Origin: Candidatus Poribacteria bacterium
Lineage (GTDB): Bacteria; Poribacteria; WGA-4E; WGA-3G
Assembly (NCBI GenBank): GCA_022821965.1
Contig: JAJECN010000058.1
Location: 122,902-186,901 of the forward strand
Direction: 5' to 3'
Length of the DNA: 64,000 nt
Shown here one piece after another: positions 56,007 through 62,428 of the stretch (position 1 is the first letter of the stretch; each line of letters begins with the position of its first letter). The translations under genes and the position numbers were made by a program. The notes under the pieces were generated by a model that was not told where the DNA came from, did not search any database, and saw only the letters and a program-made list of their open reading frames with translations.

Positions 56007-56071
56007 GTGTAGTTTAGCAATTTAAGGTCGTTCGTTGTTTGAAAGTGGCAAAAAGTGCATCCAAGAATGCT

Positions 56072-56077: not shown

Positions 56078-56102
56078 TGAATTACACAACGGAGGAAAAC
56101 CA

Positions 56103-57632
56103 GTGATAGATCTCAATAACGTTCTGAATAATTCAGCATTCTTAGAAGTACATGCACATTGGGCACCGATTGCCGATACAACTTACAATCTACACAGAAA
56201 ATCACCAGAAAACATTGAACTCTTCGACCTGTCGCCACATGAGGCTACCAGGGAATACATGGGTGAAGCTTTCAATGCTTTTCTCCCCGTGTCAACTGTA
56301 GCGGTAGGTGATGTTTGGGAACTCAATCTGGATAGCGTGATTCCATTTCTTTCGCAGTTCCACCCGGGTGCTACAGGGAAGTTACGCCACGGACAGAAAG
56401 GGGCTTTTGCCTGTTTACGCGCACTTTCGCCGGATTACGCCGACATCACGTTCCGAATTCATGCGGAGTTCACCTTGGCGACCCGCCGCAAACCCGGATG
56501 GAAACCGGGCACCCATGAGCATTTGATAGACGAAGTCCGCTTTATCCCATCGCAATTTACAGGGCAATTACTCATTGATTTGAAGACAGGCGTTATTTGC
56601 GACTTTTCGCTTGCACTTCCGCCACGCAATAGCAATGTGGATATCAATGACTTTGGGTATGCTGATATGGTTTTCGTGCCACGCATGGAACTTCATACTA
56701 TGCCAACAGAAGCACGTGATGACATCAAGTGGGAAAGCACCATCACACCCGAAGAAGCACGTAAGGCGTTGGAATTAAAGTTCTATAAATTCGCTGAAAT
56801 TAACTGGGTGCCAATCGAAGAAGCAGTCGCAGAATCGGAAACGACACAGCGTCCGATTCATGTGATCATTGCCTGGGGTCCTTTAGACGACGAATCCTGC
56901 TGAGCGAACGGTAAAAACTTGAGAGCGGGTCCGCTCTCGAATTCAGAAGTGATACAAACACTCAACGAGAAGTTCATAAACACTTGGGTAACGCTTCGCG
57001 AATTGCCAGAACTGATAGAAGGAGCAAAAGGGGAACGCGTTAGCCTTTTCGCGAGGTCCACCAAAGATTATTACGTCTATCCAGTAGATATTCAGGTCCT
57101 GAGTCCCGAAGCCGTCGTTATCATGCACCAACCAGAGAGCAAATTTCCTGACCAAAATCGGGCGCAAGGATATCTAATGTTGTTAGAATATACATTAGCA
57201 GAGAAGCCTTTATTGGAATCAGACGATCTCAGCAGTCTGCGTAAGCAGTTGATGGAAGTTTCAAACACCTTCCGCACGCCCAGAGCCGGCTATCAGGATT
57301 ATACACCCATTGAGATTGATACAACGCCCTTTGAACACGGTGGAACCCTTATCATTGATATAGAGGTAGGTGAGGGTGAAGCAACAGGTTCGTTCGATCT
57401 GTATGACGCTGACGTTGAACTGCCGACAGAGGGGTTTCCGCATGATGCACTGGCTTCAGTATGGGACATTCCGCCCAGGGTCACCGGGCAAATCATTTAC
57501 CGATTCAAGCATGGACAGCGGTTTAAGTTAGGAGCAACAGGTAACTGGTTCTGTAAGGAAGGGAGTACCAATACTTTTATCGCACGCGTTTCTGTTGTGC
57601 CAGCGGAAACAGAAGAAGGAGAAGCATCGTAA
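56103..57632 (+). CDS. bacterial selenoprotein N (SelN/SELENON) homologue (509 aa, Sec267)
   Basis: The frame runs from GTG 56103 (GGAGG seven bases ahead) to TAA 57630-57632 with one in-frame TGA at 56901-56903, codon 267. Around it the protein reads AWGPLDDESC-Sec-ANGKNLRAGPL; vertebrate selenoprotein N has WGALDDQSC-Sec-GSGRTLRE there. Matches continue on both sides: NVDINDFGYADMVFVPRMEL and IKWESTITPEEARKALEL before, LNEKFINTWVTLRELPEL and YPVDIQVLSPEAVVIMHQ after. The Cys-Sec pair is the presumed redox site. A C-terminal extension of about 110 residues (from YTPIEIDTTPFEHGG) is not in the animal protein as I recall it. There is no signal peptide or EF-hand. A SECIS-like hairpin follows the TGA. 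Animal SelN is a calcium-linked reductase in the endoplasmic reticulum; the bacterial role is unknown. Confidence 0.93.
56901..56903 (+). other. in-frame TGA decoded as selenocysteine (Sec267)
   Basis: The TGA follows TGC (Cys266), forming the SCU motif of selenoprotein N. Homology to that family continues without a gap across it. Confidence 0.92.
56919..56940 (+). promoter_or_regulatory. bacterial SECIS-like hairpin after the SelN TGA
   Basis: TTGAGAGCG (bases 19-27 from TGA) pairs with CGCTCTCGA (32-40), including one T-G pair, around loop GGTC (28-31). The loop sequence GGUC resembles that of the E. coli fdhF SECIS, and its position agrees with the hairpin in the HMA gene (loop 27-29). 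Confidence 0.8.
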
Positions 57633-57979: not shown

Positions 57980-60880
57980 ATGCGATATTATTTTTATCGT
58001 TCCTATTTCCTTGCCACCGTTTTTCTGTGCCTGCTGACCTTTCTCAATAGTGGTCATGCGAACAATCTGAGTGACGCGGAAAAGGTTGAGTTCTTCAATT
58101 CCCAAGTAAAGCCTATTCTCCAACAGAACTGTTTCCAATGCCATGGTAGCGGATCTGAAGTGGAGGGCGGACTCCAACTGACGAGTCGAGAAAAGATTCT
58201 CGAAGGCGGAAATTACGGTGCTGCGGTATCACTTGAAAGTCCTGTTGATAGTTTCCTCCTTGAGATGGTCGGCTACCGTCAAGAAACAGCACAAATGCCA
58301 CCAGACGGCAGGTTGGATGATGCCTCTCTTGACATTCTTGCCAAGTGGATCGACATAGGGCTTCCCTATCCCGTTCAAGATACCAACGTTCAACCTGAAT
58401 CTAAAACTTCATCGGATTATTGGGCATATCGCCCGCTTAAACGATCACAAGTGCCATCGGTACAAGCAGCCGATTGGGTCAGCAACCCAATCGACGCGTT
58501 TATTCTCGCAAGACTGGAGGCACACGGTTTAACGCCCGCCGCATCCGCCAGCAAACTAACGCTTATTCGCCGGGTATACTACGACCTCACAGGATTACCC
58601 CCTTCACCAGAAGCAGTCGAAGCGTTCTTGAACGACACATCCCCAGACGCTTATGAGAAACGCATTGATAAACTCCTGAAGTCGCCACGATATGGTGAGA
58701 AGTGGGGACGACACTGGCTCGACCTTGTTCGGTACGCAGAGACCAACGGCTATGAAAACGATTCGGACAAGCCGTACGTGTGGCGATACCGCGATTACGT
58801 TATCAACGCCTTCAACAAAGACAAACCGTATGATGAATTCATCAAAGAACAGCTGGCAGGTGATGAACTTGATACCGTAACCACAGAGACTATCATTGCG
58901 ACTGGGTATCACCGACTTGGTGTTTGGGACGATAGCCCTGCTGATCGGAAACTCGCGCGGTATGATTATCTTGATGATATTGTTTCAACAACAGGGCAGG
59001 TGCTGCTCGGTATGACAATCGGTTGCGCCCGATGCCACGACCATAAAATCGACCCGATTTCAACGCGGGATTACTACAGCCTGCTCGCATTTTTCCATGA
59101 TATTACGCCCAACAACCGAGGACCGCTCACCGACATCGGTACGCCTGAGCAGCAGGCAGTGCGAGATAAACGACTCGCTGAAAAACGACTCGCTGAACAA
59201 GAAGCGCAAGATAAATTTTTCGAGATACAAGAAATTATCAAAATTGAACTCGCTAAAAATATTTCAGAGGCGATAGTGCCTGATGCGCCAGTGTCTCCGA
59301 TGCGTGATCTGACATATCGCTTCTACCGCGACATCTTTGAGCAGTTTCCTGATAATTTCGATGCCTTGGAACCTGCCGCCGAAGGCAGACTGTTTAGCAA
59401 TCTATTCTCACTCACACCTGCCAGTAGAAAAAAAGACATCGGCTTGGTTTTTGAAGGAACGTTACCGGTACCGGAAGAGGCGACTTATACATTCCATATT
59501 AATCTGCAAGGCACCTGTAGATTAATTCTCAATGGTTATAAAGTCGCTGAATTGATCGGGGCGCGAGATGTAGAAGTTGCACTCACAAATGGTGAGGTGT
59601 CGATTCGCCTTGAATACTTCAACAAAGATGTAGATAAACCGCAGCTGGAAGTTTCATGGTCTGGTACGAACTTTGAGAAACAGCCACTCTCAACAAACGC
59701 TACAATTAATTTTAATGAGTTACTAAAAACACATGCGGAACTGATTGAAACGAACGAATCGTTGAAGGCGTTAGTGGATCAACAGAAGGAGTTGAAAAAA
59801 CAGCGAGATCAGCGGCGGCGACAGCGCGTGCCTTACGATCATCAAGCTTTAGCGGTTTCAGAGGGAAAGCAGACACCGACACACATCTTGCGACGCGGGA
59901 ACCCGCACCTTGTCGGACGCGAGGTTAAACCGGCATTTCCTGAAGTGTTGAATCCCCCTACTGTGGAGGTGCCACCTGTTCCAGAGGACGCAAAGCCGTC
60001 TGGGAAACGGCGTATCCTCGCGGAGTGGGTGACGAATGCTGACAACCCATTGACAGCACGCGTAATGGTCAATCGCATCTGGCAACACCACTTCGGACGA
60101 GGGATTGTCCGATCAACGAACGATTTTGGACAACTTGGCACATCGCCGACACATCCGGAACTCCTCGACTGGCTGGCATCTGAATTCATCGCGACGGGTT
60201 GGCGGTTAAAAGCGATGCACAAACTGATAATGACCTCAAACGCATATCGGATGTCAGCACAGAGCAATTCGAGATGTGTTCAACAGGACGCAAACAACGA
60301 CCTCTTTTGGCGATTCGATATGCGTCGCTTGACTGCAGAAGAGATCCGGGATACAGTACTCTGGATCACTGGAAAATTGAACTTCAAAATGGGAGGACCG
60401 AGTATTTTCCCTGAACTACCGAAAGAAGTGTTGGCGACTTCCTCAAGACCGAGGAGTGTTTGGGGGCAATCACCACCGGAGGAAGCAAACCGCCGAAGCG
60501 TTTATGTAAAGGTGAAACGCTCGTTGCTCGTCCCAATTCTGAACCAATTCGATCAAGCAAACACCGATTCGACCTGCCCAGTCCGTTTTTCGACAACGGT
60601 GCCGACACAATCGCTGACTATGCTCAACGGGAAATTTATCAACGACCAAGCACTCGCTTTCGCCAATAGGATGCGGTGGGAAGGCGGTGTGACAGTCGAA
60701 GACCGTGTGCGATTTGGACTTCGGCTTGTGCTGTGCCGTGAACCGGAGTCCTCCGAAGTGCAACAAGCATTGACCTTCATGCAAGAACTTCAACAACACG
60801 AAGGCGTGAGTTCAGAGGTTGCACTGGACCGATTTGCGTTATTGGCGTTAAATCTAAATGAATTTATCTTTTTGGATTGA
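57980..60880 (+). CDS. PSD1/DUF1549/DUF1553 planctomycete-cytochrome protein (966 aa)
   Basis: A signal peptide (FLATVFLCLLTFLNSGHA) leads to a cytochrome c domain with QNCFQCHG. DUF1549 follows (NPIDAFILARLEAHGLTPAA, YYDLTGLPPSP; CARCHDHKIDP is a second heme-like motif). A PA14-like beta domain (about 480-560; GLVFEGTLPVPEEATYTFHI) is inserted, then a coiled coil (KELKKQRDQRRRQR). DUF1553 closes the chain (RVMVNRIWQHHFGRGIVRST, ending LALNLNEFIFLD). GGAGA stands six bases before the ATG. The DUF1501 gene lies 54 bases downstream. Function unknown; probably exported and electron-linked. Confidence 0.9.
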   Translation: MRYYFYRSYFLATVFLCLLTFLNSGHANNLSDAEKVEFFNSQVKPILQQNCFQCHGSGSEVEGGLQLTSREKILEGGNYGAAVSLESPVDSFLLEMVGYRQETAQMPPDGRLDDASLDILAKWIDIGLPYPVQDTNVQPESKTSSDYWAYRPLKRSQVPSVQAADWVSNPIDAFILARLEAHGLTPAASASKLTLIRRVYYDLTGLPPSPEAVEAFLNDTSPDAYEKRIDKLLKSPRYGEKWGRHWLDLVRYAETNGYENDSDKPYVWRYRDYVINAFNKDKPYDEFIKEQLAGDELDTVTTETIIATGYHRLGVWDDSPADRKLARYDYLDDIVSTTGQVLLGMTIGCARCHDHKIDPISTRDYYSLLAFFHDITPNNRGPLTDIGTPEQQAVRDKRLAEKRLAEQEAQDKFFEIQEIIKIELAKNISEAIVPDAPVSPMRDLTYRFYRDIFEQFPDNFDALEPAAEGRLFSNLFSLTPASRKKDIGLVFEGTLPVPEEATYTFHINLQGTCRLILNGYKVAELIGARDVEVALTNGEVSIRLEYFNKDVDKPQLEVSWSGTNFEKQPLSTNATINFNELLKTHAELIETNESLKALVDQQKELKKQRDQRRRQRVPYDHQALAVSEGKQTPTHILRRGNPHLVGREVKPAFPEVLNPPTVEVPPVPEDAKPSGKRRILAEWVTNADNPLTARVMVNRIWQHHFGRGIVRSTNDFGQLGTSPTHPELLDWLASEFIATGWRLKAMHKLIMTSNAYRMSAQSNSRCVQQDANNDLFWRFDMRRLTAEEIRDTVLWITGKLNFKMGGPSIFPELPKEVLATSSRPRSVWGQSPPEEANRRSVYVKVKRSLLVPILNQFDQANTDSTCPVRFSTTVPTQSLTMLNGKFINDQALAFANRMRWEGGVTVEDRVRFGLRLVLCREPESSEVQQALTFMQELQQHEGVSSEVALDRFALLALNLNEFIFLD

Positions 60881-60934
60881 TACAACCCGTTTTCGTTTCT
60901 ACACAATAGAAACACTAAAATTGGAGATACGGTA

Positions 60935-62428
60935 ATGGACAATCTATCTAAGACCAAGAGAAAAACAAATTCAAAAGGGGATTTCTGTGGTCAAACCCGC
61001 CGAGAATTTATCGGTAACATCGCGGGTGGGTTCGCATCGCTTGCGCTGACGGGACTCTTATCCGCAGACGGCTTTCTCGATGCACAAGCCGTCGCGGCAG
61101 ACGGTGTAACGCCCTATCTCAATCCACTTACGCCGAAACCGACGCACTTCACGCCGAAGGCAAAGCGCGTGATTTTCCTGTTCATGTATGGCGGTCCAAG
61201 CCACGTGGATACCTTCGACTACAAACCAACGCTGTCCAAACTCAACGACAAGACCGTTCAGGTCAAAACGAAAGGACGGGGCGGTGATAGGTCGGAGGGA
61301 CGTATCGTCAGTCCAAAGTGGGATTTCAAACAGTATGGCGAATCGGGGCAATGGGTGTCAGGGCTTTTCCCGCACGTTGCAACCTGCGTTGATGACATCG
61401 CCTTTATCAAGTCAATGACTGCAGACTCACCACTGCACGGTTCAGCGATGCTGATGATGAACGCAGGTCGTGTGTTAAGCGGTCATCCGTCACTTGGGTC
61501 TTGGGTGAATTACGGGCTTGGCAGTGAAAACGAAAATCTTCCGGGATACGTTGTAATGCTTGACCGGACGGGGGGTCCCATCAGCGGCGCGAAGAATTGG
61601 AGTAGTGGATATATGCCCGCCGTTTATCAGGGCACGGTTTTCCGATCGGAAGGCGCACCGATTCTGAATCTGGAGCGTCCGAGTGATGTGAGTGAAAACG
61701 AACAGCGTAGACTCCTCGACTATTTGCGCCAATTCAATGCAACCCATCTCTCCAAACGCACCGATAATACCGATCTCGCCGCTCGCATTTCGAGTTATGA
61801 ACTGGCATACAAGATGCAGTCTACCGCGCCGGAAGCGGTCGATTTGGATAGCGAGCCAGAGCACATCAAAGCACTTTACGGGGTCAACGAAAAAGAGACA
61901 GAGGAGTTTGGCACGAAATGCCTTTTGGCGAGGCGATTGGTTGAGCGTGGGGTCCGGTTCATTCAGATTTACTCCGGCGGTGCCCATGGTGACGATAATT
62001 GGGACGCACACAACGACATCGAGAAAAACCACAACAAGCACGCCAAAGCGACTGATAAACCGATTGCCGGGCTGCTGAAAGACCTCAAACAACGCGGGCT
62101 ACTCGATGAAACACTCGTTGTCTGGGGTGGTGAGTTCGGTCGCCAACCGACGGCAGAGTACGCCAAGGGGACAGGTCGTGACCACAACTCCTACGGCTTC
62201 ACGATGTGGATGGCAGGTGGCGGAATCAAAGGGGGTATCAGCGTTGGTGAGACCGATGAACTCGGTAGCGCGGCAGTCACAGATCCCTTTCATGTCAGGC
62301 ATCTGCACGCAACGATTCTCCATCAACTCGGAATTGACCCGAATCGACTCACTTACTTTCACAGCGGATTAGATCAAAAACTCGTCGGCGTTGAAGGCGC
62401 AGAACCAATTTGGCAGGTCATGAGTTAA
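60935..62428 (+). CDS. DUF1501 family protein, Tat-exported (497 aa)
   Basis: A Tat signal (TRREFIGNIAGGFASLALTG) comes first. The main segments are IFLFMYGGPSHVDTFDYKP, FPHVATCVDDIAFIKSMTAD, VVWGGEFGRQPTAEYAKG and GRDHNSYGFTMWMAGGGIKG, as in DUF1501 proteins. It is a distant paralogue of 2925-4370 and partners the DUF1549/1553 gene before it. GGAG stands nine bases before the ATG. Confidence 0.9.
   Translation: MDNLSKTKRKTNSKGDFCGQTRREFIGNIAGGFASLALTGLLSADGFLDAQAVAADGVTPYLNPLTPKPTHFTPKAKRVIFLFMYGGPSHVDTFDYKPTLSKLNDKTVQVKTKGRGGDRSEGRIVSPKWDFKQYGESGQWVSGLFPHVATCVDDIAFIKSMTADSPLHGSAMLMMNAGRVLSGHPSLGSWVNYGLGSENENLPGYVVMLDRTGGPISGAKNWSSGYMPAVYQGTVFRSEGAPILNLERPSDVSENEQRRLLDYLRQFNATHLSKRTDNTDLAARISSYELAYKMQSTAPEAVDLDSEPEHIKALYGVNEKETEEFGTKCLLARRLVERGVRFIQIYSGGAHGDDNWDAHNDIEKNHNKHAKATDKPIAGLLKDLKQRGLLDETLVVWGGEFGRQPTAEYAKGTGRDHNSYGFTMWMAGGGIKGGISVGETDELGSAAVTDPFHVRHLHATILHQLGIDPNRLTYFHSGLDQKLVGVEGAEPIWQVMS

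Follow-up and report, generated by a model that had tools for sequence, protein, structure and literature searches.

A multi-copy family of predicted selenoproteins in Poribacteria related to animal selenoprotein N

In a 64,000-nucleotide stretch of DNA from a Candidatus Poribacteria bacterium (GenBank assembly GCA_022821965.1, contig JAJECN010000058.1), here called the window (C19:122902-186901 in our contig numbering of a genome of 5.69 Mb and 62 contigs), a single plus-strand frame at 56103-57632 was broken solely by a TGA at 56901-56903. The question was whether this codon ends an ordinary protein or is read as selenocysteine (Sec), giving 509 residues on readthrough. An initial annotation had proposed a bacterial homologue of selenoprotein N (SelN; gene SELENON or SEPN1), a selenoprotein that underlies a group of human myopathies and whose loss causes muscle disease in humans. 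It is highly probable that the gene encodes a bacterial homologue of animal SelN, its UGA predicted to be decoded as Sec, probably as directed by the hairpin 24 nt downstream, and its product a likely thiol/disulfide oxidoreductase. This reading was favored because homology extended to both sides of the UGA, the UGA was conserved, a conserved hairpin of the selenocysteine insertion sequence (SECIS) type followed it, and the Sec machinery was complete.

Homology to selenoprotein N and the in-frame TGA

As first annotated, the upstream half of the frame ended in WGPLDDESC and the downstream half opened with ANGKNLRAGPL in the same register after the TGA. When profiles of 39 poribacterial and 8 vertebrate rows were compared with hhalign, they matched with a probability of 100 and an E value of 7.1e-54 over 345 columns (window residues 10-369), spanning Sec. 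BLASTP of the window protein against bonobo SelN gave 94/304 identities (31%, E 1e-41), again on both sides of Sec, and the proposed homology was upheld. A human SELENON sequence used as query had as its best UniRef matches entries named Selenoprotein N (Pan paniscus, 99%; a Homo sapiens record, 100% over 72%). The aligned part was the luminal region, and the vertebrate EF-hand sits before it. Vertebrate database models skip or garble Sec, and the letter-level match at this residue rests on the SCUG motif in passages of PMC8584023 and PMC12839072 and on the human query sequence. By its core the window gene is a member of the SelN family, with Sec insertion itself predicted.

Residues altered in patients fell within the conserved blocks. 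The missense sites Arg291, Sec462 and Arg466 (passages of PMC8967691) and codon 315, changed by c.943G>A (passages of PMC12839072), mapped through motif blocks to R118, U267, K271 and G154, respectively; the numbering follows the human query sequence, and the sites are those met in these passages rather than a full list. R118 and G154 were invariant in the 39 rows and K271 was conserved in at least 90%, with Lys in place of Arg.

Selection of the 117 loci used to assess conservation did not depend on the TGA itself: they were chosen for similarity to the window protein or for a pattern lying upstream of that codon. They held 148 sites, which reduced to 126 distinct 105-nt contexts, and 125 of the 126 had TGA. 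The only other codon, TGT, stood in a deletion-broken copy (L072) that reappeared as L143. When six single-contig genomes were searched, all 38 core-length matches held one TGA (12 copies in G081, 9 in G083, 8 in G082, 6 in G079, 3 in G046 and none in G023); five of the 38 listed TAA or TAG as well, and three short fragments had no TGA. Database proteins carried Trp (P0007), Gly (P0008 and P0009) or Cys (P0011) at the site, P0011 being the one Cys form seen where the initial annotation had suggested looking for Sec or Cys. Two doubts raised in that annotation were also settled: homologues ran on past residue 267 rather than all ending before it, and independent assemblies shared the same TGA, so a sequencing error converting TGC or TGG was not supported. 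At the codon level, Cys preceded the TGA in 124/124 sites, with Gly at U+3 and Lys or Arg at U+4 in the same 124; these and the SECIS statistics leave out one overly short context among the 125 with TGA.

If the TGA were an ordinary stop, translation would yield 266 residues, and the frame after it would be decaying or separate. TGA closed 5 of the 28 stop-to-stop frames of at least 300 codons in the window, so it appears to stop translation there, and many of the database homologues listed spanned only 52% of the query, before the site. However, the TGA was kept in nearly every distinct context, and the downstream half aligned to vertebrate SelN and was conserved with third-position bias. Changes at third positions prevailed on each side of the TGA in 8/8 pairs (SECIS codons excluded), and the downstream half was kept at 54 to 92% identity in the eight pairs compared. 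Together with a hairpin kept at synonymous sites and the presence of Sec machinery, these results left an ordinary stop very improbable.

Hairpin, Sec machinery and points of doubt

The hairpin at 56919-56940 had a 9-bp stem (56919-56927 paired with 56932-56940, one G-U) closed by the loop GGTC (56928-56931). Its first stem base was base 19 counted from the T of the TGA, as annotated, and 24 nt lay between the TGA and the loop. The rules for bacterial SECIS elements (bSECIS), taken from the Fig 2 legend of PMC13188914 and coded by ourselves, call for a loop of 3-9 nt with G in its first two positions, a stem of 4-16 bp, a distance of 16-37 nt from the UGA and an energy of at most -7.5 kcal/mol. 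With its GGUC loop, 9 bp, 24 nt and -12.9 kcal/mol, the window hairpin agreed with these published constraints, as did 116/124 family sites compared with 103/2480 synonymous-codon controls, in which codons were redrawn from family codon usage. The annotated fit to a bacterial SECIS therefore held.

Stems of at least 6 bp were present at 123/124 sites versus 7.4% of the controls, and, numbering from the UGA, loop bases G27 and U29 were fixed in 124/124 versus 30% in the null. Most stems fell into one of two registers offset by two bases (61 sequences in one and 60 in the other, with 3 in neither), and the loop bases stayed at the same distance from the UGA. Codon choice was skewed within the element: the Leu codon at +11 was CTC in 121/124 sites (19% in the rest of the family), and all 123 Arg codons at +7 were AGA or AGG (26% in the rest). 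The mean folding-energy z was -1.76 in the SECIS window versus +0.20 in the window that followed, with p ≤ 0.05 at 41% of single sites; taken alone, the window hairpin stood out only moderately from dinucleotide shuffles (z -1.90, 10/200 shuffles as good). A SECIS-type hairpin is thus conserved beyond what the protein sequence requires. In two copies with Gly at the site (L134 and L135) the loop codon had become ACT and the G was lost, as expected if Sec insertion was no longer needed. Ala-to-Thr changes in L003, L075, L106 and L116 gave an A-U pair where most relatives had G-C or G-U.

The genes selA, selB, selC and selD, whose look-up had been proposed, were all found in the genome and all scored over family cut-offs: selB adjoined tRNA-Sec (anticodon tca) on contig C20, selA was on C54 and selD on C15. 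The SelD gene (G000:C15:4585-5508) had one in-frame TGA and is itself a predicted selenoprotein. Across the phylum, tRNA-Sec scored over cut-off in 74/84 genomes and SelN homologues were present in 64/84; by our own count of the table these fell into families f1 (58/58), f2 (2/2) and f3 (4/9), with 0/3 in f4 and 0/12 outside this order. In this 84-genome sample SelN was therefore restricted to a single order within a phylum in which most genomes decode Sec. A one-pattern scan of genome contigs returned 151 relatives, of which the 80 listed were all from Poribacteria.

Suppression or an altered code could instead insert Cys, Trp or Gly at the UGA, and the few relatives with a Gly, Ser, Trp or Cys codon in its place point in that direction. 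However, TGA served as a stop elsewhere in the window, the Sec machinery was complete down to a tRNA-Sec with a UCA anticodon, the hairpin obeyed the loop rule of the model, and Cys occurred only once (P0011). Insertion of another amino acid is accordingly a highly unlikely account, and decoding as Sec remains the preferred one.

Several observations weighed against this preference. When ten matches were fetched because they were listed without TGA or with another stop, four had TGA at the site and six did not; the latter carried Gly (L133, L134, L135, L137 and L138, the last two alike) or Ser (L136). Some copies, among the Gly, Ser and Trp forms, may function without Sec or be decaying. The self-coded bSECIS rules excluded 8/124 sites, seven by energy alone (-5.4 to -7.4 kcal/mol), and L117, among the eight, also lacked the usual stem. 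A search of Rfam gave no SECIS match. Seven SelN-bearing genomes (G029, G032, G035, G049, G060, G061 and G077) had no tRNA-Sec over cut-off; these are drafts of at least 140 contigs, and either an assembly gap or true loss is possible. Neither Pfam nor NCBIfam matched the window protein up to E 1, and the thioredoxin-type Pfam matches of the Sec domain in its relatives fell below the curated cut-off. Neither an electron donor nor a client was identified. Upstream lie genes for MurJ, an aminotransferase and a His_biosynth-domain protein, downstream PSCyt/PSD1 and DUF1501 genes, and this neighborhood suggested no pathway either.

Domain layout, sister copies and predicted function

The gene was read from a GTG at 56103 to a TAA stop, with GGAGG at 56091-56095, 7 nt before the GTG, as a likely ribosome-binding site judged from its sequence; an alternative GTG start was possible at 56055. 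The N-terminal SelN domain (56103-56786, residues 1-228), mainly antiparallel strands and holding FRIHAEF, was predicted with high confidence, and none of the solved structures compared matched it clearly. It was followed by a predicted thioredoxin-fold domain (56787-57200, residues 229-366) of the AGR/DsbH type within the thioredoxin superfamily, in which Cys266-Sec267 stood immediately before the helix 268-275. The extra C-terminal domain noted in the initial annotation was real, a beta-sandwich at 57240-57602 (about residues 380-500) that vertebrate SelN does not have. The window protein was also without an EF-hand, as annotated: it had no Pfam match of any kind, and EF-hand models missed it entirely and gave a weak, below-cut-off match to bonobo SelN (E 0.0013). 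A crude hydrophobicity rule detected neither a signal peptide nor a membrane segment, in agreement with the annotated lack of a membrane anchor. With neither EF-hand nor anchor, the window gene is not classed as the animal form of SELENON. Directly downstream, 57980-62428 encoded a PSCyt1/PSCyt2/PSD1 protein and then a DUF1501 protein, with no evident link to the selenoprotein gene.

The genome held 11 TGA-bearing places, the window gene included, several of them in tandem on contigs C10, C42 and C34; the copy on C37 was short and may be broken. When 114 family members with a complete start were sorted by simple sequence rules, 18 consisted of the SelN core alone, 15 had a TlpA-like tail, 4 were extended at the N-terminus by a long stretch that included a membrane segment (the extracytoplasmic function, ECF, type) and 68 had other tails, 35 of these sharing a motif with the beta-sandwich domain encoded by the window gene. 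A leader was recognized in 9 further members by a crude rule that misses weak leaders. These copies, the single Cys form and the sisters that bear a leader peptide, a TlpA-like domain or an ECF sigma factor had gone unseen in the initial annotation.

In L005 (1498-3513), L080 (2450-4120) and 13 further members the SelN core was followed by a TlpA/AhpC-like redoxin domain; Pfam reported AhpC-TSA/Redoxin in L005 and L080, and L005 also had weak TPR matches between core and redoxin domain. The fused domain is possibly a built-in electron partner. In L084, L086, L087 (1505-3601) and L091, an ECF-sigma-like region, a membrane segment and a SelN domain with an in-frame TGA shared one frame, and P0011 had the same fusion with Cys at the Sec site. 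The sigma factor was assigned by Pfam (sigma-70 regions 2 and 4) and NCBIfam in L087 and by precomputed matches in P0011, and the four loci were grouped by length and hydrophobicity. Such a fusion is possibly a selenoprotein-sensing transmembrane sigma factor.

A sensory role would mean that an oxidized Cys-Sec pair, or selenium-dependent truncation at the UGA, signals redox or selenium state. It is consistent with the SelN domain lying behind an ECF-sigma-like region and membrane segment in these four loci, with an N-terminal domain that stops 38 residues short of the UGA and should, by prediction, fold independently, and with the description of vertebrate SelN as a calcium/redox sensor in passages of PMC12839072. 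However, the window gene had no sigma factor, membrane segment or adjoining regulator, and the fusion of other sister copies to TlpA-like redoxins favors catalysis. We consider sensing unlikely as the main role of this selenoprotein.

Under the preferred oxidoreductase reading, the UGA at 56901-56903 would be read as Sec, probably as directed by the hairpin, and the resulting protein would place Cys266-Sec267 at the N-terminal end of a helix in the modeled thioredoxin fold. The pair would cycle between selenol/thiol and selenenylsulfide, a chemistry known from thioredoxin reductases. A partner resembling thioredoxin or TlpA, such as the one fused to sister copies, would re-reduce it, and the N-terminal domain and C-terminal beta-sandwich would select the client. 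Without EF-hand or anchor, the window copy is probably cytoplasmic; copies with a leader peptide, or preceded by an ECF sigma factor and a membrane segment, would carry the same module outside the membrane.

Origin of the family and comparison with known systems

On strong sequence evidence, SelN of Poribacteria is a genuine multi-copy bacterial family with predicted Sec insertion and redox activity. Many members of this phylum are sponge symbionts. A tree of 41 rows (32 from 115 poribacterial cores thinned at 72% identity, 8 vertebrates and P0011) split vertebrates from bacteria at 100/100; it was unrooted, and donor and recipient could not be read from it. The ancestral redox function proposed in the initial annotation was partly supported, by the predicted thioredoxin fold. 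We tentatively suggest that SelN crossed between animals and Poribacteria with a swap of Sec signal type and then multiplied in the bacteria into a redox and signaling system of cytoplasmic, secreted and TlpA-coupled forms and membrane-spanning ECF sigma factors with a SelN sensor.

A 2026 review (PMC13188914, Table 1) lists 119 prokaryotic selenoprotein families with no SELENON entry. For bacteria, passages of the deep-Sep paper describe SelO rather than SelN; in passages of an algal and a metazoan survey, SELENON is described in algae, almost solely as the Sec form, and listed in a sponge. No open PMC article combined 'poribacteria' and 'selenoprotein', with mentions in subscription papers or preprints not excluded. 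The family would add to the bacterial selenoproteome with one Cys form only, and such near-absence of Cys forms is of the kind missable by methods relying on Cys homologues, a limit stated in the deep-Sep paper. A sequence search found no solved SELENON structure. With a probably soluble bacterial SelN in which the four patient sites checked are conserved or nearly so, the structure and chemistry of the core become directly testable, and its likely redox core could be studied apart from the calcium role in animals. Independent clues to core function come from the many copies, some fused to a TlpA-like redoxin or an ECF sigma factor or bearing a leader peptide.

The bacterial gene shares with SELENON/SEPN1 the aligned luminal region, the motif DDxSC-U-xxG(K/R)xLR and the FRIHAEF, QFTG and NVD blocks. 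By contrast, the window gene has no EF-hand or membrane anchor, its SECIS lies inside the gene, and a C-terminal beta-sandwich is added. The human genome has a single SELENON gene, whereas the five single-contig genomes having any core-length TGA copies had 3 to 12 each. Like the known prokaryotic selenoprotein families (PMC13188914), many of which have a thioredoxin fold, it combines a UGA with an in-gene SECIS. AGR2/AGR3, ERp19 (1sen; TXNDC12), DsbH and DsbH-domain thioredoxins have CxxC in place of the Cys-Sec with Gly at U+3 found here, and no sequence match to this group rose above cut-off. Thioredoxin reductase, with its Cys-Sec pair in a C-terminal tail, has another fold, and in the window protein the pair opens an internal helix. 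The GCUG motif of that enzyme nevertheless presents adjacent Cys and Sec as a redox pair, a comparison drawn for SelN in passages of PMC12839072, and the bacterial protein shares this arrangement.
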